Positions 51,744 through 64,000 of a stretch of DNA of 64,000 nt are shown here, piece after piece. Both the position numbers and the translations under genes were made by a program. Positions within the stretch are counted from its first letter, which is position 1. Every line of letters starts with the position of its first letter. Under the pieces are notes generated by a model. That model did not search any database, was not told the DNA's origin, and saw nothing but the letters and a program-made list of their open reading frames with translations. The DNA is from Solirubrobacterales bacterium (GTDB taxonomy: Bacteria; Actinomycetota; Thermoleophilia; Solirubrobacterales; Solirubrobacteraceae). The stretch is taken from assembly GCA_027449125.1 (NCBI GenBank), contig DAIDME010000046.1, positions 1 through 64,000 of the forward strand, written 5' to 3'.

Positions 51744-52817
51744 CTCGTCGCCGGTGATCCCCGGTACGCCGAAGCTCGCGTCGCCCTGAGGGGTGCGGAT
51801 GATCAACCGCGCGCGTGGCTCGGGATTGCGGCGCTTGGGGCGCAGGCTGACGACCTGCAGCGTCTCGATCTCGTCCCAGAGCAGGCGGCCGAGGATCTCG
51901 TGCTCACCCTCGAGGATGTCCACGCCGGCGCTCGACAGGCAGACGCCGAGCCCGTCGTGACGCTTGGGCAGGTTGGCGACGCCTCCCTCGTGAACGGCGG
52001 GGAAGACCAGCTCGCCGGGGTCGCTCGAGACCGGCACCAGGGCGCCGCCGGGGTGCTCATCCAGCGCTTCGCCCAGCGCCTCCCAGGGTGCGCGCGCGGC
52101 CGGTGCGGCGACGGGCGCGGCCGGTGCGGCGACGGGCGCGGCCGGTGCGGCGACGGGCGCGGCCGGTGGTGCCGGCACAGGCGGAGCCGCGGTCACCGCC
52201 GCCGGTGGCACCCATCGCTTGTTGGGTGCGGCGGGCGACGGCTGCGTCTCCGCGACGGCGGCCGGGGCGGAGGCTGACGGCGCCGGGGACGGGGCCTGGG
52301 CTGGGGCCGCGTCGTGATCGTCCTCCTCTTCCGTGAAGGACGCCACGACGTCGTAGAGCTCGGTCTCGTACTCAACCGGCTGCGGCTCGGCCGGCAGCTC
52401 GTCCACCACATCGTTGGCGGACACGTGCTCCGGCTCCTCCCCCGGGCCGGCACCGTGCAGTGGCCTGACCGGTGGCACGGGACGGGCGATCAGCTCGGCC
52501 AGGCTCTGATCGTAGGACGGTGCGCCAACCAGCCTCTGTGCGTCTGCCACGGCGGGGTGTACGAGCGCCTCGCTGACGGTGACGCCCAGCTCGCCGGCGG
52601 CGACCTCTGCCAGCGCACGGCGCCACTGCAGGCCATCTGCCCGGCCGACGGCATCCTGGATCATGGCCTCCAGGCGATCGTCGCTGATCGTGATCAGGTC
52701 CGCGTGAGTGTTGGCCGCGGCCTGATAGGCGCCGCGCAGCCGCTCCAGCAGCGCGGCCCGGCCACCATCTGCGATCCGCTCGGCGAGCACCTGCGACTCT
52801 GTCTGTGTGTCCGTCAT
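51696..52817 (-). CDS. unrecognised Ala/Pro-rich protein
   Basis: I do not recognise this 373-residue protein. Residues 1-110 are helical; about 120-260 is an acidic then Ala/Pro-rich disordered region with a PAAPVAA repeat encoded by 21-bp DNA repeats. The C-terminal 105 residues form a compact beta-rich domain (CLSSAGVDILEGEHEILGRLLWDEIETLQV ... RARLIIRTPQGDASFGVPG), which looks like a PH-type fold. No signal or membrane helix. It starts within the stop of the E2-like gene (ATGA), so it is part of that operon, and overlaps the methyltransferase gene tail-to-tail by 48 bp. Confidence 0.75.
   Translation of the reverse strand: MTDTQTESQVLAERIADGGRAALLERLRGAYQAAANTHADLITISDDRLEAMIQDAVGRADGLQWRRALAEVAAGELGVTVSEALVHPAVADAQRLVGAPSYDQSLAELIARPVPPVRPLHGAGPGEEPEHVSANDVVDELPAEPQPVEYETELYDVVASFTEEEDDHDAAPAQAPSPAPSASAPAAVAETQPSPAAPNKRWVPPAAVTAAPPVPAPPAAPVAAPAAPVAAPAAPVAAPAARAPWEALGEALDEHPGGALVPVSSDPGELVFPAVHEGGVANLPKRHDGLGVCLSSAGVDILEGEHEILGRLLWDEIETLQVVSLRPKRRNPEPRARLIIRTPQGDASFGVPGITGDELRDRIEPLLARYGQH
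52094..52156. repeat. three 21-bp tandem repeats inside a coding region
   Basis: Three identical 21-bp units (GCGCGGCCGGTGCGGCGACGG) plus a 13-bp partial fourth. In the minus-strand frame each unit encodes seven residues of the Ala/Pro/Val-rich linker. The unit is a multiple of three, so copy changes keep the frame. Recent duplication is likely because the units are identical. Confidence 0.85.
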
Positions 52818-53524
52818 ATTCGTGCCTCCTCCAGAAAGGCCTTGACCTCCTCCAGGAAGGCCGCGGCGTGGTGCCCGTAGACGATCCGGTGGTCTACCGC
52901 CAGCGATAGTTGCATCGTATGGCCTGGCCGCACCTGCCCGCCGCGCACCACCGGGACGTCGCGGATCGGGCCGAAGGCGAGTGCGCCCGCCTGGGGTGGG
53001 TTGACGAGTGGCGTCAGCGCGACGATGTCGTACTCGCTCGAGTCCACCACGGTGAAGGTGGCGCCGGCGAGCTGCGACGGGTGCAGCTCCTGCTCTCGGG
53101 CGTGCGTGTAGAGCGCGCCGAGCTCGGCGCCGATCTCCGCCGCCGTGCGCTGGTCGGCGTCGAAGACCGTGGGTGTGGTGTAGAGCCCTTCGGCGATCAG
53201 CGTGACGCCGACGTTGACGCGGCCGTGCAGCTCGTAGCGGCCGTCCCGGTAGGAGCCGTTGACGCGCGGGACGGTGCGTAGCGCGTGCGCCGCCGCTGCG
53301 ATCACGGCCGCGACGATCCCGCAGCCAACCTCGTGCTCGCGTTCGAGCAGCGCGTCGACCGACGCGACATTGCTGAACTCGACGGTAGGCACGGTTGCGC
53401 GGCTCTCAGCGCTGCGCCTGGCCAGCGCACGCTCGTGGCGATCGGGGTCGAGCGTCGTCGTCTCACCCTTCAGGCCGTGCTCTGTCAGGCCGTGCTGCGA
53501 GAGCGGTGTCGCCGGCTCACTCAT
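52814..53524 (-). CDS. E2-like 2-oxoacid dehydrogenase acyltransferase domain, without lipoyl domain
   Basis: 236 residues that match only the catalytic domain of dihydrolipoyl acyltransferases: NVGVTLIAEGLYTTPTVFDAD, GATFTVVDSSEYDIV, NPPQAGALAFGPIRDVPVV and LAVDHRIVYG. There is no lipoyl domain and no subunit-binding domain. In the active-site motif DHRxxDG the catalytic-support Asp is replaced by Tyr (HRIVYG), while the His remains. It is 85 bp downstream of dihydrolipoamide dehydrogenase, but no E1 gene is nearby. It may be a structural or redirected protein rather than a normal E2. Confidence 0.85.
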   Translation of the reverse strand: MSEPATPLSQHGLTEHGLKGETTTLDPDRHERALARRSAESRATVPTVEFSNVASVDALLEREHEVGCGIVAAVIAAAAHALRTVPRVNGSYRDGRYELHGRVNVGVTLIAEGLYTTPTVFDADQRTAAEIGAELGALYTHAREQELHPSQLAGATFTVVDSSEYDIVALTPLVNPPQAGALAFGPIRDVPVVRGGQVRPGHTMQLSLAVDHRIVYGHHAAAFLEEVKAFLEEARI

Positions 53525-53609
53525 CCGCCGTCACGATAACCGGAATCGCCGACACGTGGGGTCGCAGGCGGCGCGGCGCGCACGCGTCCACGGGTCGCGG
53601 CGGAACGGC

Positions 53610-54980
53610 TCAACCGTGGATCAGCCAGCCGTCGAGCGCGCGCGCTGCCTCCATCACGGCCTCCGAGAGCGTCGGGTGGCCGTGGATGGCGCGCGCGACC
53701 TCGGGGTAACCGCCCTCGAGCAGCTTGGCGTTGACCAGCTCCTGTACCAGCTCGGTCGCCTTGGCACCGATGATGTGGCCGCCCAGCAGTTCGCCGTAGC
53801 GCTTGTCGCCGATCAGCTTGACCATGCCCTGACGGTCCCCGTACACCGTGCCGGCGCCAACCGCGCCGTAGGGCACCTTGCCGACCACGACCTCATGGCC
53901 CTGGGCGCGCGCCTGCTCCTCGGTGAGCCCGAAGCTCGCGACGTTCGGGGTGCAGAAGGTCGCCCGCGGGATGTCCGGATAGCTGATCGGGTGGGTGTGC
54001 AGGCCGGCCGCGTCCTCCACCGCGATCACGCCCTCGTCGGAGGCCTTGTGCGCCAGCGCCGGGCCGGCGACCAGGTCACCGATCGCGTACACGCCGGCGA
54101 GGTTGGTGCGCATCGCGCCGTCTACGGCGATCAGGCCACGCTCGTCGAGAGCCACCCCGGCCAGCTCCAGGCCGAGGCCCTCCACGTCCGGGCCCCGTCC
54201 GGCCGCGATCACCACATAATCAGCCTGGCCGGTCTGGTCGCCATAGTCGAAGGTGACCTTCAGCTCGCCGCTCTGAACGTTCGTGACCAGGGTGCCCGTG
54301 TGGACGTCGATCCCCTGCTTCTTGAAGCCGCGCTCAGCCAGCCTGGAGATGTCGGCGTCTTCGGACGGCAGCACGCGGTCGAGCGCCTCAAACAGCTTGA
54401 CCTCGGTCCCGAGCCGGGCGTAGGCCGAGGCGATCTCAGACCCTGAGGCTCCCGAGCCGATCACCGCCAGCGAGCCCGGCAGCTCCGGCAGCGCCCACGC
54501 CTCCTCCGTGCCGATCACGCGTCCGCCGAACTGCGTGCCCGGGATCGGTCGCTTCACCGACCCTGTCGCGAGCACCACGAAGCGCGCCTGGTAGCTCTGG
54601 CCGGCGACGCTGACTTGGCGCTCGCCCTCGAGCGACGCGGCGCCCTCGATCACCGTCACGCGGTTCTTCTTCAGGAGCCCCGCAACGCCGCCGGTGAGCG
54701 TCGTGACGACGCGGTTGCGGCGCTCCATCACGGCGCCGAAGTCGACGCTGGGCGCACCGACGTTGATGCCGAACTCTCCGGCCTCGCGGATCTCAGCCAC
54801 CACGTCAGCGGTGCGTAACACCGCCTTGGCGGGGATGCAGGCATAGTTCAGGCAGCGTCCGCCGATCTTGTCCTTCTCGATCACAGCGGTGTTGAAGCCG
54901 AGCTGGGCGGCCCTGATGGCGGTGACGTAGCCGCCGGGCCCCGAGCCGATCACGATGACGTCAAAGCTGTTTTCGGGCAC
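53610..54980 (-). CDS. lpdA: Dihydrolipoamide dehydrogenase (E3)
   Basis: FAD enzyme that reoxidises lipoamide with NAD. It has 456 residues. FAD motif GSGPGGYVTAIRAAQLG near 12-28; redox disulfide in GGRCLNYACIPAKAVL (Cys-x4-Cys kept, though the flanking residues differ from the usual GGTCLNVGCIPSK); NAD-site GSGASGSEIASAYARLG; FAD-binding GVYAIGDLV; C-terminal active site HGHPTLSEA with the His-Glu pair. Eleven bases separate it from the ThiE-like gene upstream. Partner complex could be pyruvate or 2-oxoglutarate dehydrogenase encoded elsewhere. Confidence 0.95.
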   Translation of the reverse strand: MPENSFDVIVIGSGPGGYVTAIRAAQLGFNTAVIEKDKIGGRCLNYACIPAKAVLRTADVVAEIREAGEFGINVGAPSVDFGAVMERRNRVVTTLTGGVAGLLKKNRVTVIEGAASLEGERQVSVAGQSYQARFVVLATGSVKRPIPGTQFGGRVIGTEEAWALPELPGSLAVIGSGASGSEIASAYARLGTEVKLFEALDRVLPSEDADISRLAERGFKKQGIDVHTGTLVTNVQSGELKVTFDYGDQTGQADYVVIAAGRGPDVEGLGLELAGVALDERGLIAVDGAMRTNLAGVYAIGDLVAGPALAHKASDEGVIAVEDAAGLHTHPISYPDIPRATFCTPNVASFGLTEEQARAQGHEVVVGKVPYGAVGAGTVYGDRQGMVKLIGDKRYGELLGGHIIGAKATELVQELVNAKLLEGGYPEVARAIHGHPTLSEAVMEAARALDGWLIHG

Positions 54981-56830: not shown

Positions 56831-56859
56831 TTGACTTGCCGCGAGGCTTGGGGTAGCTT
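56831..56859 (+). promoter_or_regulatory. sigma70-type promoter of the dehydrogenase gene
   Basis: TTGACT (56831-56836), 17-base spacer, TAGCTT (56854-56859). Transcription would start near 56866, inside the operator at 56863-56876, which fits repression by a bound regulator. Confidence 0.7.
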
Positions 56860-56862
56860 CTT

Positions 56863-56876
56863 TGCAAACGATTGCA
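56863..56876. promoter_or_regulatory. LacI-family operator, site 1
   Basis: TGCAAACGATTGCA, an imperfect palindrome around a central CG, the usual form of LacI/GalR-family operators. It begins four bases after the minus-10 hexamer. Identical 14-mer at 59141-59154 and 13 of 14 bases in reverse at 59017-59030. The regulator gene is not in the window. Confidence 0.8.
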
Positions 56877-56886
56877 CAAGGAGAGG

Positions 56887-57828
56887 ATGGATGACCGGAT
56901 GACGGGGTTGGGGTGGGTCGGGGTGGGTCGGATGGGTCACGCCCTGGTCTCGAGGCTCCTCTCTGCTGGGCATGACGTGGCGGTTTACAACCGCACACGC
57001 GAAAAGGCGCTCGACCTCGTGGAGCTCGGGGCGACGTTGGTGGACACGGTGGCCGATCTCGCTGACCGGGACATCGTCTTCACTATGGTCGCCGACTCGA
57101 CCGATGTCGAGGCCGTCGTCGAGGCACTGCTCTCGCGGCCGCACGTGCAGCCTGGGCTGATCGTCGATTCCACCACGATCTCGCCGGCCGCGGGCGAGTC
57201 GATCCGGCGCAGGGCCGCTGCACGGGGGACCGCGATGCTCGCGGCGCCGGTGAGCGGCAACCCCAAGGTCGCCGCCTCGGGCCGCCTCACGATCGTCACC
57301 TCGGGTCCCATTGAGGCGTGGACGCAGGCGCGGCCGTATCTGGAGCCGCTGTGCCGCAAGGTGACCTATGTCGGCGATGGCGAGCGGGCGCGACTGGTCA
57401 AGGTGTGTCACAACCTGATGCTCGGGGTGGTCGCGCAATGCATGGCGGAGATCAGCGTGCTGGCCGAACAGGGAGGTGTCAGCCGCGCTGACCTCTGGGA
57501 GTTCATGAATGACAGCGTCATGGGATCCGTGTTCACACGCTACAAGACGCCAGCCTACGTGAACCTCGACTTCAGGCCGACGTTCACGCCCTCTCTCCTG
57601 CTCAAAGACTTCCATCTCGGCTTTGAGGCCGCGCGCGCGAGCGGGGTTCCCATGCCAGTGGTTGCGGCAGCCGAGCAGGCCGTGCAGCTACTCGAGGGCA
57701 TGAAGGGCAACGACGTGGACTTCGCCGCCCTGATCGAGCTGGTGGCGGCGGGAGCGGGGGTCGAGCTCGTGCCGGCGGATGTCGAGATCGACGACGGCCT
57801 CGCGCCGCTTGAGTCGGTTGTCGGCTAG
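56887..57828 (+). CDS. beta-hydroxyacid dehydrogenase (3-hydroxyisobutyrate dehydrogenase family)
   Basis: NAD(P)-dependent oxidoreductase of 313 residues. Rossmann motif GVGRMG at 12-17 with NR after the second strand, suggesting NADP; substrate-site DSTTISP and APVSGNP; catalytic Lys172 in ARLVKVCHN. Start ATG 56887 follows AAGGAG by three bases, a short spacing. The first codons contain a run of G-blocks (56904-56927) with a G-quadruplex pattern. It lies directly after a promoter-operator pair and is followed by the hydrolase 79 bp later, pointing to a shared catabolic pathway. Confidence 0.9.
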   Translation: MDDRMTGLGWVGVGRMGHALVSRLLSAGHDVAVYNRTREKALDLVELGATLVDTVADLADRDIVFTMVADSTDVEAVVEALLSRPHVQPGLIVDSTTISPAAGESIRRRAAARGTAMLAAPVSGNPKVAASGRLTIVTSGPIEAWTQARPYLEPLCRKVTYVGDGERARLVKVCHNLMLGVVAQCMAEISVLAEQGGVSRADLWEFMNDSVMGSVFTRYKTPAYVNLDFRPTFTPSLLLKDFHLGFEAARASGVPMPVVAAAEQAVQLLEGMKGNDVDFAALIELVAAGAGVELVPADVEIDDGLAPLESVVG

Positions 57829-57907
57829 CGCATGCGGGCGTCGTTGGCTGGGTGGGGCAAGCGGGGCCCCGCGAGCCGCTGAGGCGCCCGCCGCCGGGGG
57901 AGCCTAA

Positions 57908-58969
57908 GTGTCCGACGCACAGCTCGAAGCCGTCATCCTGAACTGGGAGCCGCGAGTGGTCGCCAACGGAGTTGACGTCAACGACTACCGGCGGGTGGCG
58001 GGATCGGCGGAAACCTGGGAGCAATGGCTGCCGGCCTGGGAGAGGCACGGCGATCAGCTGGCCGGCGAGGCTGGCGCCGCCGAGATGGCGGGCCGGCTGG
58101 AGACGGCAGGCGAGTTCTGGAGGCGGGCGGCGAGCGCCTACCACTTCGGCAAGTTCGTCTGGATCCTGGACCTGGATATGCATGCGCGGGTCGCCCAGAA
58201 GGCGGTCGACGCGCTGGCCAACGCGCTGCGACTGCTCGACCCCTCGGCCCAGCGTTTGGAGATTCCTTTCGACGGTGCCAAGCTGGTGGCCATCTATCGC
58301 CGCCCCGCGCGCGGTGGCTCTCCGGCGCCACTCGTGGTGATCATCCCGGGTCTTGATTCCACGAAGGAGGAGTTCTTCGAGACCGAGGAGGTCTTTCACC
58401 GGCGAGGACTGGCGACCCTGACGCTCGAAGGGCCGGGCCAGGGCGAAGCCGGTGTCTCGCTGCCGCTGCGCCACGACTATGAGGTCCCCTTCTCCGCGGC
58501 GCTTGATTTCATCCAGGATCTCGATGGTCCCGCGATTGGCGCCATTGGCCTGATCGGCGTGAGCCTGGGCGGCTACTACGCCGCTCGCGTCGCCGCGTTC
58601 GAGCGGCGGGTTAAGGCGGCAGTCGCGGTGAGCGGCCCCTACAACTTCGGGGACTTCTGGGACCAGCGCCCAGACATGACCCGAGCCACGTTTCGACACC
58701 ATGCGCGGGCCGCTGACGATCGAGACGCAAGGCTGCGGGCTGGTCGGTTCAACCTCGCGACTGTGGCGGAAAGGATCGAGCAGCCGCTGCTGGTGATCAC
58801 CGGCGACTGCGACCGTCTCATCCCCTGGCAGGACACCAAGCGGATAGCCGACGAGGCCAAGCATGCGACCTGGAAGCTGTATGAGCGCGGCAACCACGTC
58901 GTCAACAACATGCCTTACCGCTACAAGACGCTTGCGGCCGACTGGCTGCGAGAGCAGCTTGTGCGGTGA
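57908..58969 (+). CDS. alpha/beta hydrolase (2,6-dihydropseudooxynicotine hydrolase-like)
   Basis: 353 residues. An N-terminal helical domain (about 1-110, with WRRAASAYHFGKFVW) precedes the alpha/beta hydrolase core, the layout of 2,6-dihydropseudooxynicotine hydrolase and related C-C hydrolases. The triad is Ser219 (GVSLGG elbow), Asp302 (GDCDRLIP) and His330 (GNHVVNN). IIPGLDSTKEEF forms the oxyanion loop. The true substrate is unknown. Start is GTG at 57908 with a GGGGGAG stretch upstream. It follows the dehydrogenase and precedes operator site 2. Confidence 0.88.
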   Translation: MSDAQLEAVILNWEPRVVANGVDVNDYRRVAGSAETWEQWLPAWERHGDQLAGEAGAAEMAGRLETAGEFWRRAASAYHFGKFVWILDLDMHARVAQKAVDALANALRLLDPSAQRLEIPFDGAKLVAIYRRPARGGSPAPLVVIIPGLDSTKEEFFETEEVFHRRGLATLTLEGPGQGEAGVSLPLRHDYEVPFSAALDFIQDLDGPAIGAIGLIGVSLGGYYAARVAAFERRVKAAVAVSGPYNFGDFWDQRPDMTRATFRHHARAADDRDARLRAGRFNLATVAERIEQPLLVITGDCDRLIPWQDTKRIADEAKHATWKLYERGNHVVNNMPYRYKTLAADWLREQLVR

Positions 58970-59016
58970 GAGCTTCGGTCCGCCTCGTGCCCAGCCGGAG
59001 CCGCAGCGCCGCCACT

Positions 59017-59030
59017 GGCAATCGTTTGCA
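59017..59030. promoter_or_regulatory. LacI-family operator, site 2 (reversed)
   Basis: GGCAATCGTTTGCA, the reverse complement of the 14-mer at sites 1 and 3 with one change. It lies 48 bp after the hydrolase stop and 124 bp (centre to centre) before site 3, so it could be an auxiliary site for looping. Confidence 0.65.
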
Positions 59031-59105
59031 CGTCGCTTTCGCCGCCACGCCTGAGTCGTGACCCCGAATCGCCGCGGCAGGACTGCTCGGCTGCGCCAAT
59101 GTCGC

Positions 59106-59134
59106 TTGACAGCAGCAGGAGCGGCCGGTAACGT
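59106..59134 (+). promoter_or_regulatory. sigma70-type promoter of the ABC transporter operon
   Basis: Perfect minus-35 TTGACA (59106-59111), 17-base spacer and TAACGT (59129-59134). Predicted start near 59141 is the first base of operator site 3, giving a leader of about 70 bases. Confidence 0.75.
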
Positions 59135-59140
59135 GGCGTA

Positions 59141-59154
59141 TGCAAACGATTGCA
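59141..59154. promoter_or_regulatory. LacI-family operator, site 3
   Basis: TGCAAACGATTGCA, identical to site 1, in the same position relative to its promoter. Control of the importer by the same regulator as the dehydrogenase is a direct inference. Confidence 0.8.
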
Positions 59155-59209: not shown

Positions 59210-60475
59210 ATGAGGGTCCTTCACAGACAGAAATTCAGCCGGGCGCTGCTCGCCTCGGGCACGCTCGCCGTCGTGGCGACATTCGCCTGGGCCGGGCATT
59301 CGAGCAGCGCGAGCGCTCACGCTGCGGCCAAGGCGGCGAGCGCGTCACCGATCACCATCGGGGTGTCGCTGTCACTGAGCGGTGACTTCTCGGCCGACGG
59401 TCAGGCCTACCAGAAGGGCTACGAGCTCTGGGCTACCGACCAGAACAAGGCAGGAGGCTTGCTCGGTCACCCGATCAAGCTCGACGTCATCTCCGATGCC
59501 TCGAATCCGGCGCAGGTGGTCACCAACTACGAGAAGCTGATCGGCTCCAACCGGGATCAGCTGGTGTTTGCGCCGTTCTCGACGCTGCTGACGATCCCGG
59601 CCGCCCGCGTGGCCGCGCGCTTCGGCTATGCCATGGTCGGCGGCTCCGACGGCGGCCCAACGGTCTTCTCTGCCGGGCTCAAGAACGTCTTTGACGTCTC
59701 GATCCCGGTCAAGAACAACCTAGTGACGTTCGCGCAGTGGATCGCCTCCATGCCGAAGTCGAAGCGACCGAAGACTGCCGCCTACGTGACTGTCAACGAC
59801 CCCTTCACGCAGCCGCAGCTGCCGGTCGCTCAGGCCATCTTGAAGAAGGCGGGCGTGAAGACCGTGCTGAACAAGGTCTTCCCCGCAGAGGCCACTGACT
59901 ACAGCGCGATCGCAGGACAGGTGGCAGGCGCAAAGCCGGACGTGGTTATCCTCGGCTCGGTGGACGTGCCGACCGTCTCGGCCTTCGTGCACGTCTTCAT
60001 CCAGCAGCACTACAACCCCAAGGCGTTCATTGCCACCTCCGGCCCCGACCAGGGGCAGCAGTTCATCAACGCCGTCGGTGCCGGCAACGAGAACGGGATC
60101 TTCGTGCCCAACGGCTGGTACCCAGGCTTCCGGAAGGCCGACTCCCAGAAGATGGTCAAGCAGTACGTAGCCAAATACGGTGGCACCCCCAGCGGCGTCA
60201 ACGCCGACGTGGCCGAGGCATACTCGGTGGGCCAGGTGTTGACGCAGGCGGTTGAGGCGACGCACGGCTTCAACCAGCAGAAGATCATCAAATACCTGAA
60301 GAGCGGTGTCACGCTCAACAGCGTGCAGGGCCCGGTCAAGTTCAACAACCTGGGTGAGAACCTTGCCCAGAAGACGCTGACGTTCCAATGGCAGGGAGGC
60401 AAGCTGGATCAGGTGATACCCACCAACAGCCCGGGCTCCGTCAAGCCGCTCTATCCCAAGCCGGGCTGGAAGTAA
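59210..60475 (+). CDS. ABC transporter substrate-binding protein (LivK/branched-chain amino acid type)
   Basis: 421 residues from ATG 59210 with GGAGGAGAGAGAGGG directly upstream. An N-terminal signal sequence (RALLASGTLAVVATFAWAG) is followed by the type I periplasmic-binding fold, with ITIGVSLSLSGDFSADGQAYQKGYELW and LGHPIKLDVISDASNPAQVVTNYEKL. No lipobox Cys is visible, so it may be secreted or held by an uncleaved helix. This family binds amino acids, amides, urea or aromatics; ligand unknown. First gene of the importer operon, behind operator site 3. Confidence 0.92.
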   Translation: MRVLHRQKFSRALLASGTLAVVATFAWAGHSSSASAHAAAKAASASPITIGVSLSLSGDFSADGQAYQKGYELWATDQNKAGGLLGHPIKLDVISDASNPAQVVTNYEKLIGSNRDQLVFAPFSTLLTIPAARVAARFGYAMVGGSDGGPTVFSAGLKNVFDVSIPVKNNLVTFAQWIASMPKSKRPKTAAYVTVNDPFTQPQLPVAQAILKKAGVKTVLNKVFPAEATDYSAIAGQVAGAKPDVVILGSVDVPTVSAFVHVFIQQHYNPKAFIATSGPDQGQQFINAVGAGNENGIFVPNGWYPGFRKADSQKMVKQYVAKYGGTPSGVNADVAEAYSVGQVLTQAVEATHGFNQQKIIKYLKSGVTLNSVQGPVKFNNLGENLAQKTLTFQWQGGKLDQVIPTNSPGSVKPLYPKPGWK

Positions 60476-60479
60476 GGCC

Positions 60480-61364
60480 GTGTCGGGCACCGCCTTCCTG
60501 GAAGCCATCATCGACGGGATCCTGACCGGCGGCGTCTACGCGCTGATGGCCGCCGGTCTGACCCTGATCTTCGGTGTGATGGACATCATCAACATCGCGC
60601 AGGGGATCATGGTCATCCTGGGTGCATATCTCAGCCTCGAGCTGTCTGTGCACTTCGGGATCGGGCTCCTGCCCGGCTTGCTGATCACCGTGCCGCTGAT
60701 GTTCTGCCTTGGTGTCGCGATCGAGTTCTTCTTCATGCGCAGGTTGCATGACGAGGACCGAACGAAGATGTCGATTCTCGTCACCTACGCGGTGGCGATA
60801 GTGATCGAGGGCATCCTCACTGCCACCTTCGGCGTCAACTACCAGCAGCTGTCGGCGTCGTATGTCAACAGCTCGGTGTACGTGTTCGGCTTCTACCTGC
60901 CGGATATCTACCTGATCGGCTTCGGAATGGCGATCGCCCTGCTCGTTGGGCTGTATTACATGCTGTACCGCACCAAGTTCGGCCGTGCCGTCCGGGCCTC
61001 CCTGCAGAACCGGACGGCGGCCGACTTGATCGGCATCGACGTAAACCGTGTACGCACGATCTCGGTAGGCATCGGCGTAGGCGTGACAGCCATCGCCGGC
61101 GTCTTCTTCGGCGCCACCAATGCCTTCAACCCCAACTCGGGCTACGACCTGATCTCGCGCCTGCTGGCGATCGTGATCCTCGGGGGCATGGGATCCATCG
61201 CCGGGGCCATGGGAGCGGCGGTGTTCATCCTCGTGATCAATGACGTTGTGGCCGCGTGGTGGTCGCCGACGTGGGCGCCCATCGTGTACTTCGTGGCCCT
61301 CGTCGTCGTCTTGTCGATCCGCCCGCAGGGCCTGTTCGGCCGTGCAGCAGTTCGCACGCAGTGA
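60480..61364 (+). CDS. livH: Branched-chain-amino-acid-type ABC permease LivH
   Basis: 294 residues, about eight membrane helices. The LivH hallmark AIIDGILTGGVYALMAAGLTLIFGVMDIINIAQGI is at the N-terminus (I give key parts: GGVYAL, MAAGLTLIFGVM, NIAQG). The cytoplasmic loop that docks the ATPase is LQNRTAADLIGIDVNRV. Start GTG four bases after the binding-protein stop. Confidence 0.93.
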   Translation: MSGTAFLEAIIDGILTGGVYALMAAGLTLIFGVMDIINIAQGIMVILGAYLSLELSVHFGIGLLPGLLITVPLMFCLGVAIEFFFMRRLHDEDRTKMSILVTYAVAIVIEGILTATFGVNYQQLSASYVNSSVYVFGFYLPDIYLIGFGMAIALLVGLYYMLYRTKFGRAVRASLQNRTAADLIGIDVNRVRTISVGIGVGVTAIAGVFFGATNAFNPNSGYDLISRLLAIVILGGMGSIAGAMGAAVFILVINDVVAAWWSPTWAPIVYFVALVVVLSIRPQGLFGRAAVRTQ

Positions 61365-61391: not shown

Positions 61392-62552
61392 GTGTCCTCA
61401 ACCACAAGGAAGCAAGTGACTCTCGACAAACAGACATCGGCCGCTGGCGACGCGCCGGCGTCGCCAGCGGCCGCGGCCGCCCCGGGCGCCGGTGGCGACC
61501 GCACCCAGGCTGCGGCAGCCGGCCCCCAGCCAGCCCTTCGCTCGCCACTGCGGCTCGGCGCCCGCGGGCTGATCCTTTTGGCCCTTGTCGTCTTCCCGCT
61601 GGTGATCACCGACCCAACGACAACCGCGATCGCCTTCTTCGCGCTGGTTTTCATGGTCGCCGCCACATCCTGGAATATGTTCAGCGGCTACAGCGGGTAC
61701 CTTGCTCTGGGCCACGCGGTCTTCTTCGGGAGCGGCGGCTATGCACTCGCGCTGCTCTGCCAGCAGCTGGGTGTGGGTGGCGGCTGGCCGTCATTTGCCC
61801 TCCTGCCCCTGTGTGGGATCGTCGCCGCCCTGATCGCCGTTCCGGTGGGCCTGATCGCGCTGCGCACCCGCCGCCACACCTTTGTTGTGGTGACGATTGC
61901 GATCTTCTTCATCTTCCAGCTGGTGGCCTACAACGTGGGCTTCACGGGCGGTACCTCGGGCGTCTTCCTGCCCGCACCGCCGTTCTCGGGCGCCAGCTTC
62001 AACACGCCCTTCTACTACGTGGCATTCGCGATCCTGGTGCTGTCGGTGACCACGTCGTGGCTGGTGCGGCGCTCGCGCTTCGGCCTCCAGCTGCTGGCGA
62101 TCCGCGACGACGAGGATCGCGCGCTCGGCCTGGGGGTCAAGACGCGTCGGGTGAAGCTCTCCGCCTTCATACTGTCGGCGTTTTTCGTCGGCATGATCGG
62201 CGGGCTCTACTTCGACTTCATTGGGCAGGTGTTCCCCAACACGGCCTACGACCCCCTGTTCGACCTGGCCGTGGCGCTGATGGCCTTCTTCGGCGGGCTC
62301 GGGACCCTGACCGGCCCGCTGCTCGGGGCGGCCGTGCTCGAATCACTGCAGCAATACCTCACGCTCAGCTTCTCGAGCAGCGCGCTCTATCTGATCGCCT
62401 ACGGCGTCCTGTTCCTGGTGGTGATCCTGATCATGCCGCGGGGTGTGGTCCCTGAGATCAGCGACTTGTTGGCCCGTCGCCGTTTGAAGGCGATCGGCGC
62501 AAGCCGCGCGGCGGACAAGCAGCTCAGTGGCGTCGCGGAGGTGCTCCGGTGA
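61392..62552 (+). CDS. livM: Branched-chain-amino-acid-type ABC permease LivM
   Basis: 386 residues. About 55 Ala/Pro-rich residues precede the first of about nine helices. Family marks are NMFSGYSGYLALGHAVFFGSGGYA, FTGGTSGV and the ATPase-docking loop AIRDDEDRALGLGVKTRRVKL. The start is set at GTG 61392; a GTG at 61416 with AAGGAAG close upstream is equally likely. Its stop overlaps the start of the ATPase gene (GTGA). Confidence 0.93.
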   Translation: MSSTTRKQVTLDKQTSAAGDAPASPAAAAAPGAGGDRTQAAAAGPQPALRSPLRLGARGLILLALVVFPLVITDPTTTAIAFFALVFMVAATSWNMFSGYSGYLALGHAVFFGSGGYALALLCQQLGVGGGWPSFALLPLCGIVAALIAVPVGLIALRTRRHTFVVVTIAIFFIFQLVAYNVGFTGGTSGVFLPAPPFSGASFNTPFYYVAFAILVLSVTTSWLVRRSRFGLQLLAIRDDEDRALGLGVKTRRVKLSAFILSAFFVGMIGGLYFDFIGQVFPNTAYDPLFDLAVALMAFFGGLGTLTGPLLGAAVLESLQQYLTLSFSSSALYLIAYGVLFLVVILIMPRGVVPEISDLLARRRLKAIGASRAADKQLSGVAEVLR

Positions 62553-64000
62553 GCAATCTGATCGAGGTCAGCGGGATCGTCAAGGCATACGGGGGCATCA
62601 AGGCGCTCGCCGGCTGTGCGCTGGAAGTGCGTGAAGGCGAGATCAACGGCCTGATCGGGCCGAACGGCTCCGGCAAGACGACCCTGTTCAACGTCATAAC
62701 CGGCTATGAGCAGGTCCAGCAGGGGCTGGTGAAGTTCAGGGGCGTGGACATCACCAACGCCCCGCCGGACCGAGTGTTCGGTCTGGGGATCGGGCGCACG
62801 TTCCAGCTGACGCGCATGTTCGCGCGCCTGACGGTACTTGAGAACGTGCTGGTGGCAACACAGCGCGAGGAGGGCTGGGCACGCAGCGTCACACGGCTCG
62901 CCGGGTCTCAGCTCGAGCGTGCACGCGCGCTCGAGCTGCTTGACTTTGTGGGTATCACGCGGCTTGCCAACGAGCCGGCGGGCAACCTCTCATACGGCCA
63001 ACGCAAGCTTTTGGAGCTGGCCTCGCTGCTGATCGCCGACCCGGCGGTCCTGCTGCTAGATGAGCCTGCGGGTGGTGTCAACCCGACGTTGATCAACCAC
63101 CTTTCAGATCGCATCAAGGATCTCAACCGCGACGGCAAGACGATTCTGGTGGTCGAGCACAACATGGAGTTCGTGATGGGCATCTGCTCCCGCATCACAG
63201 TGCTCAGCCAGGGCTCGACGCTGATGGCGGGCGCACCCGCTGAGGTTCGGTCGAGCCCGGCCGTGCTGGAGGCTTACCTGGGCGCGGACGAGGAGGAGGC
63301 AGCGCTGGATGCGGAGCTGCGTCGCGAGCTCGATGCTGCCGCTCACGCCAATGCGACCAGGTTGGCGTCGGTGCAGGCCACCGTGGTGCGCGAGCAGGGC
63401 CCCGATGCGGGCTCGCCGCGGGAGCCGGAGGCAGCCGGGCCGGGAGCATCGGTGCGCACGCGGCCGAACGGCCCGCCACCACTGCTGCAACTGAGCGGCG
63501 TCTGCGCCGGATACGGTGGCGCGGACATCCTCAAAGAGGTGACGCTGGAGGTGCCCGAGGGTGCTATCACCTGCGTCGTCGGTCCCAACGGCGCCGGCAA
63601 GTCCACCGTGATGAAGACCGTCAGTGGCCTCCTGCGGCCACGTGCGGGTGAGGTCAGCTTCCGCGGCGAGCGGGTGTCCGGAATGACCCCCAAACAGATC
63701 CTGGCCAAGGGGATCGCCCAGATTCCCCAGGCCCACAGCCTGTTCCCGGAGATGACGGTGCAGGAAAACGTCGAGATGGGGGCCTTCACGGTCGGTGACC
63801 GGCGCCTCGTGCGCAAGCGCCTGGCGGCCGTGCAGGAGCTCTATCCGGTGGTGCGCGACCGCGCTCACGAGAAGGCGGGCAGCCTCTCCGGCGGTCAGCA
63901 GCGCTTGGTTGAGTTCGCGCGCTGCCTCATGCTCGACCCCGACCTGATCATGCTCGACGAGCCTTCCATGGGGCTTGACCCGCGCACGCGCTCGATGGTG
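62549..64000 (+). CDS. Fused LivG-LivF ABC ATPase (3' end beyond window)
   Basis: One uninterrupted frame of 484 codons to the window end, start GTG inside the livM stop. First ATPase, LivG type: Walker A GPNGSGKTT at 37-45, signature LSYGQ at 147-151, LLDEP Walker B, and VVEHNMEFVM. A charged linker of about 65 residues (about 240-305) leads to a second ATPase, LivF type: Walker A GPNGAGKST at 345-353, signature LSGGQ at 446-450, then MLDEPSMGLDP. In other bacteria these are two proteins. Both sites look intact, so one polypeptide would supply both halves of the ATPase dimer. Confidence 0.93.
   Translation, partial: MSNLIEVSGIVKAYGGIKALAGCALEVREGEINGLIGPNGSGKTTLFNVITGYEQVQQGLVKFRGVDITNAPPDRVFGLGIGRTFQLTRMFARLTVLENVLVATQREEGWARSVTRLAGSQLERARALELLDFVGITRLANEPAGNLSYGQRKLLELASLLIADPAVLLLDEPAGGVNPTLINHLSDRIKDLNRDGKTILVVEHNMEFVMGICSRITVLSQGSTLMAGAPAEVRSSPAVLEAYLGADEEEAALDAELRRELDAAAHANATRLASVQATVVREQGPDAGSPREPEAAGPGASVRTRPNGPPPLLQLSGVCAGYGGADILKEVTLEVPEGAITCVVGPNGAGKSTVMKTVSGLLRPRAGEVSFRGERVSGMTPKQILAKGIAQIPQAHSLFPEMTVQENVEMGAFTVGDRRLVRKRLAAVQELYPVVRDRAHEKAGSLSGGQQRLVEFARCLMLDPDLIMLDEPSMGLDPRTRSMV

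Follow-up and report, generated by a model that had tools for sequence, protein, structure and literature searches.

Two operons in the DNA analysed here, a 64,000-nucleotide stretch from a Solirubrobacterales bacterium (the window), are very probably governed by a LacI-family protein encoded just beyond its end, at C46:64239-65261 on the same contig, for which a repeated 14-mer would serve as the operator. As judged from sequence, the copies of the 14-mer, their adjacency to the regulator gene, the relatives and the promoter geometry point to a local, probably co-transcribed LacI repressor acting over two starts. The computed support consists of the repetition and locality of the sites, the adjacency, the conservation of sites and promoter geometry, the co-occurrence with the regulator and a residue of its recognition helix; binding, repression, induction, co-transcription and the identity of the effector are what we infer. 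A regulon of ordinary mechanism and unusual content, and its assignment to the LacI family, are well supported, and none of the titles listed by word searches of one open-access library describes it. What was a locus of unassigned function can now be treated as a defined regulon whose switch is open to experiment. With the operator as a handle, further genes of what seems to be an undescribed catabolic pathway can be collected from other genomes, and the regulator may be a sensor of a non-sugar compound, which is uncommon in the LacI family.

Operator-like sites and promoter geometry

Scanning both strands of the window, we found TGCAAACGATTGCA exactly at 56863-56876 (predicted operator 1) and 59141-59154 (predicted operator 2). 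A third copy, at 59017-59030 on the minus strand, differs by a single base. These results confirm the positions given in an earlier, sequence-only reading of this DNA. The 14-mer is a near-palindrome (TGCAA.CG.TTGCA), so the label "reversed" that the third copy had received means little. Its even, palindromic form with a central CG is that described as usual for LacI-family operators in PMC4052901. The repeat had been judged very unlikely to be due to chance, and shuffling agrees: at up to two mismatches the window yielded five rows, two of them the opposite strand of the same sites, against a mean of 0.17 matches in shuffled sequence, and none of 100 shuffles reached five.

Across the assembly (3,165,141 bases in 113 contigs, 92% complete), three exact copies and one with a single mismatch were recovered, all on contig C46 between 56863 and 73072 (about 16 kb). 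The sole further exact copy, operator 4 (C46:73059-73072), lies outside the window, upstream of ALDH2, an aldehyde dehydrogenase gene. The sequence-only reading had suggested a search for more copies; that few exist, the one exact copy being nearby, favours its interpretation, and the proposed operator triad holds for its three window sites but not for their number, the fourth making it a tetrad. At up to two mismatches the genome gave 18 rows versus three for the reversed control, one palindromic site yielding two rows.

Promoter pairs with 17-base spacing had been proposed before both exact copies, and are present. Upstream of the dehydrogenase-hydrolase operon (56831..56859, plus strand), TTGACT (56831-56836) is followed by a 17-base spacer and TAGCTT (56854-56859), with operator 1 starting 3 bases past the -10 and a predicted transcription start at about 56866, inside the operator. 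For the importer operon (59106..59134, plus strand), TTGACA (59106-59111), a spacer of the same length and TAACGT (59129-59134) precede operator 2 by 6 bases, and the predicted start is the first base of the operator. These gaps, 3 bases before the dehydrogenase and 6 before the binding protein, are alike in the window's genome and in two congeners, G163 and G236. Neither pair reaches the threshold of 9 of 12 positions in a scan for the sigma-70 consensus, so the -10 hexamers are weak and the two promoters rest on conservation. The 59017-59030 copy is a putative auxiliary operator-like site, its centre 124 bp upstream of operator 2; a scan for TTGAC/TAnnnT pairs found no promoter beside it, and two of the four sites of this genome are without an adjacent promoter by the same scan. 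No stable DNA fold was seen in the intergenic region (z -0.68).

We extended the comparison to 29 carrier loci (427,620 bases), where a search with four palindromic forms, allowing up to one mismatch, gives 66 sites versus one with the reversed forms; since some of these loci were fetched for holding the motif, the unbiased contrast is the whole-genome search described below. A promoter pair (TTGACN, 16-18 bases, then TAnnnT ending at most 12 bases before the site, in either orientation) stands directly upstream of 26 of the 66 sites, as compared with 19 of 20,000 random positions (0.095%), and of 24 of 62 when the window's genome is left out; the 66 sites are partly non-independent, owing to 13-base pairs and near relatives. 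Seven site pairs in relatives are exactly 13 bases apart at up to two mismatches (L069:7437/7450, L074:9338/9351, L096:17855/17868, L070:10683/10696, L078:7773/7786, L101:1118/1131 and L069:2050/2063), forming tandem overlapping operators, and six of the seven lie at the 5' end of an importer binding-protein reading frame. Such spacing is reported for LacI-family sites in PMC4052901, and no pair of this kind occurs in the window.

The regulator gene and its relatives

An adjacent LacI-family gene, sought at the suggestion of the sequence-only reading, was found 239 bases beyond the window end (C46:64239-65261, 340 codons). It starts 31 bases past the stop codon of the fused importer ATPases, as the last gene of the importer operon, and is therefore probably co-transcribed with the importer and autoregulated. 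The product, one of seven LacI proteins of the genome, combines a LacI-type helix-turn-helix (C46:64254; PF00356, 48.0 bits, cut-off 27) with a periplasmic-binding-protein-like sensor domain (PF13377, 131.3 bits, cut-off 26.5), and its nearest solved structures are RbsR, CcpA and PurR. It scores below the cut-off of each of the 18 NCBIfam models that it matches, so that the effector is not readable from orthology. The locus shares with the LacI/GalR local repressors RbsR, CcpA and PurR the helix-turn-helix and binding-protein-like sensor, a promoter-located operator that is an even palindrome centred on CG, and a regulator adjoining its operons, but differs in that no sugar enzyme was recognised among the scanned genes.

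Without inducer, repressor dimers would obstruct RNA polymerase by occupying the start regions at 56863 and 59141; once the substrate or an intermediate bound the sensor domain, the repressor would leave, allowing the importer, the catabolic enzymes and the repressor itself to be made. As the repressor is the last gene of the importer operon, this would amount to negative feedback. At C46:73059 the site might control a second aldehyde dehydrogenase by the same mechanism or by forming a roadblock. One induced catabolic system had been proposed for the window genes; comparative evidence upholds the local LacI switch, and the word "induced" is drawn from the family. A C-terminal tetramerisation segment is absent from the regulator: its alignment with E. 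coli LacI extends to residue 332 of 360 in LacI and to residue 338 of its own 340, short of the tetramerisation segment of LacI. Upstream of the G236 operator, a scan of approximately 520 bases found no second site; in G163 only 96 bases of contig precede the site. Given the lack of a tetramer segment and of that second site, looping between 59017 and 59141 (124 bp) is no more than a possibility.

The regulator might instead be of the PurR-like co-repressor type, binding DNA only with its ligand, so that an end product would shut off the operons. Its sequence is equally near RbsR, CcpA and PurR, but we regard this alternative as unlikely in view of the catabolic gene content with an importer and of the ligand-free DNA binding that PMC4052901 attributes to most LacI-family regulators.

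Histidine occupies the first recognition-helix position in the query and in all 17 relatives at least 47% identical to it, mostly as VHPGT or VHPAT, and is absent from the six other LacI proteins of the genome and from relatives of 37-41% identity; this pattern ties the motif to this branch and not to the LacI family at large. Five of the six other proteins also lack two residues after the recognition helix. It is accordingly hard to assign the sites to another of the seven LacI regulators or to a CcpA-type global catabolite regulator, a possibility that we consider very unlikely even though the motif resembles generic LacI-family operators: sites with at most one mismatch are confined to a single 16-kb stretch, the other six proteins lack the histidine, and the LacI protein of contig C62 has an adjacent pair of its own, TGCAACCGGTTGCA.

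Returning to the local LacI repressor, we examined its distribution. In a sample of 399 genomes from the class, at least 20, the window's own among them, have a relative at E<=1e-60, with up to five candidates scored per genome. In fetched loci, relatives of 47-77% identity adjoin differing subsets of the same genes, such as the dehydrogenase, importer and hydrolase, gene picks in these GC-rich loci being made by third-position GC. Reading frames from 32 loci (21 genome labels), a biased sample chosen for regulator, motif or M24-fold enzyme, were clustered and the components named by matching representatives: the regulator was present in 18 of the 21 labels, the HIBADH-type dehydrogenase in 17, the M24-fold enzyme in 16, a 2-oxoacid dehydrogenase E1 in 14, the binding protein in 12 and the hydrolase in 7.

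Fourteen of the 19 other carrier genomes were searched whole, and 12 contain the motif at up to one mismatch. The 14 genomes gave 53 rows at 47 distinct places versus two reversed-control rows, and 31 of the 47 places are within 25 kb of the regulator gene; of the remaining 16, the surroundings of 15 were retrieved: 11 share their contig with relatives of the M24, HIBADH, E1 or hydrolase genes, one is beside an amidohydrolase-2 gene and three are on contigs without such genes. No site at this threshold was found in the whole genomes of G254 (regulator 39% identical) and G289 (53%), and the loci of the other five genomes (2.6-3.5 kb, with 38-41% relatives) lack the motif even when two mismatches are allowed. 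Among genomes of the same genus, five of six with a regulator at least 50% identical contain the motif, as compared with 3 of 22 without one (Fisher p=0.003). Individual cases depart from this association: G402 has a 55% identical regulator and no site at up to one mismatch, G405 (75% complete) has regulon genes and sites and no such regulator was found, and G252 and G360 have one site each, again with no such regulator found. Loci L044 (54%) and Streptomyces L103 (50%) have sites with two mismatches only, and Microbacterium L046 (40%) has none at up to two mismatches near its M24 and HIBADH genes.

It is scarcely conceivable that segment duplication or a mobile element left these repeats behind without regulatory role, for although three identical 14-mers lie close together and the 59017 copy has three further bases in common with the 59141 copy, the flanks of the three exact copies are unlike beyond the 14-mer and the sites recur before homologous genes elsewhere with conserved promoter spacing.

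Genes of the locus and its neighbourhood

The gene names proposed for the window hold at the family level. The first operon encodes, on the plus strand, a HIBADH/6PGDH-type beta-hydroxyacid dehydrogenase (56887..57828, start uncertain between 56887 and 56899), over the cut-offs of PF03446 and PF14833 and under those of all eight NCBIfam models matched, and an alpha/beta hydrolase resembling 2,6-dihydroxypseudooxynicotine hydrolase (57908..58969). The best solved relative of the latter is 2jbw (E 9e-40, 140 bits, nearly full length), with the Ser-Asp-His positions of the catalytic triad kept in the alignment. Unlike in the nicotine catabolism to which 2jbw belongs, the window hydrolase is distant and no nicotine-pathway gene set was recognised among the scanned proteins. 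The importer operon, also on the plus strand, comprises a periplasmic substrate-binding protein of Liv/HAAT type (59210..60475; PF13458, 154.8 bits) with distant PDB relatives, two Liv-type permeases (60480..61364 and 61392..62552; both PF02653) and two Liv-type ATPases fused in one protein (62549..64000 and continuing outside the window, C46:62549-64207).

Past the regulator, the minus strand carries a putative 2-oxoacid dehydrogenase E2, named from its own sequence and a weak match, and then E1, followed by VOC, GntR, ALDH1, the M24-fold enzyme, ALDH2 and ornithine carbamoyltransferase genes. The E1/VOC start showed no operator-like site at up to four mismatches and may be controlled by a GntR regulator. 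A perfect palindrome, ATTGAATTCAAT, lies near the divergent E1 and VOC starts (L020:12905-12916, that is, C46:68904-68915) and is a possible site of this GntR-type regulator; a scan of the seven other loci did not find it, and two of them have the looser ATTGNNNNCAAT elsewhere. On contig C62, TGCAACCGGTTGCA occurs in two copies, at C62:42738 and C62:42775, beside another LacI gene, and the pair probably represents the own operators of that regulator.

A stand-alone E2 catalytic domain and a dihydrolipoamide dehydrogenase-like protein are encoded on the minus strand of the window at 52814-54980, adjoining a thiamine-phosphate-synthase domain protein, and may serve the E1 and E2 genes past the regulator. 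The ornithine carbamoyltransferase gene (C46:74654-75568) is directly behind ALDH2 and is the only one of the assembly over the family cut-off, so that operator 4 might also affect arginine synthesis.

The M24-fold enzyme (C46:71657-72982, or L020:15658-16983) lies outside the window. In an alignment of the query with tblastn matches from the collected loci (E<=1e-40, 330 or more residues), near-identical rows dropped, all 20 rows have Cys (GYRTCYYRT) where proline dipeptidase has an Asp, presumably a metal ligand, and a conserved PHPH stretch precedes this position. It is unlikely to be an ordinary peptidase. The match with structures of the DMSP lyase DddP is near full-length but weak, and DMSP breakdown was rejected on a score of 107.6 bits versus an NCBIfam cut-off of 600 and on the change from the metal-ligand Asp to Cys. 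Relatives occur in 49 plasmid records, and annotated 2-oxoacid dehydrogenase genes are beside them in five of nine surroundings inspected (Streptomyces, Phaeobacter, Pacificitalea, Rhodobacteraceae SC52 and Paenarthrobacter SD-1); among the others, one has a dihydrolipoyl dehydrogenase only, one has none and one is without annotation. The context of the subfamily is thus HIBADH and 2-oxoacid dehydrogenase in Actinobacteria, and 2-oxoacid dehydrogenase on plasmids of the Roseobacter group.

The substrate question

PMC4052901 attributes control of carbohydrate metabolism to 176 of the 182 LacI-family groups with an assigned pathway. A sugar regulon was rejected here, as the family matches of the scanned proteins include no sugar enzyme, and the substrate is probably not a sugar. 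Our best guess from gene content is an aromatic or aryl-ketone compound. Plasmid p4 of Rhizobium bangladeshense encodes a 42% identical regulator with a VHAST helix and has five sites at up to one mismatch. One of these sites is followed by a run of genes that includes a hydrolase of 38.5% identity; the plasmid also encodes an intradiol dioxygenase, for which hydroxyquinol 1,2-dioxygenase is the best match among solved structures. A hydroxyquinol-type cluster with a related hydrolase and the same operator hints at an aromatic substrate; that the Rhizobium regulator is a distant relative counts against this reading. In Noviherbaspirillum, with a 46% identical regulator and a VNPST helix, two sites are directly upstream of a maleylacetate reductase-related gene and an intradiol dioxygenase gene. 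Two further points count against an aromatic substrate: a Shinella cluster whose hydrolase is 39% identical lacks a site, and no gene of the window's own locus was recognised as a ring-cleavage enzyme, the VOC protein being an unassigned member of a superfamily that includes some dioxygenases. Breakdown of sulfonamide or aminoisoxazole, prompted by the M24 relatives on Paenarthrobacter plasmids, was dropped because the heterocyclic products are described as dead ends in PMC10873849.

We tentatively propose, as a possibility somewhat short of even, that a LacI branch marked by the recognition-helix His (VHxxT; VNPST in Noviherbaspirillum) and the operator TGCAA.CG.TTGCA has moved off sugars and controls the breakdown of aromatic or aryl-ketone compounds in Actinobacteria and Proteobacteria, with an actinobacterial core of the undescribed Cys-containing M24 enzyme, the HIBADH-type dehydrogenase and a dedicated 2-oxoacid dehydrogenase complex. 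The gene sets of some carriers include an amidohydrolase-2, a molybdenum hydroxylase subunit or an amine-oxidase-like protein.
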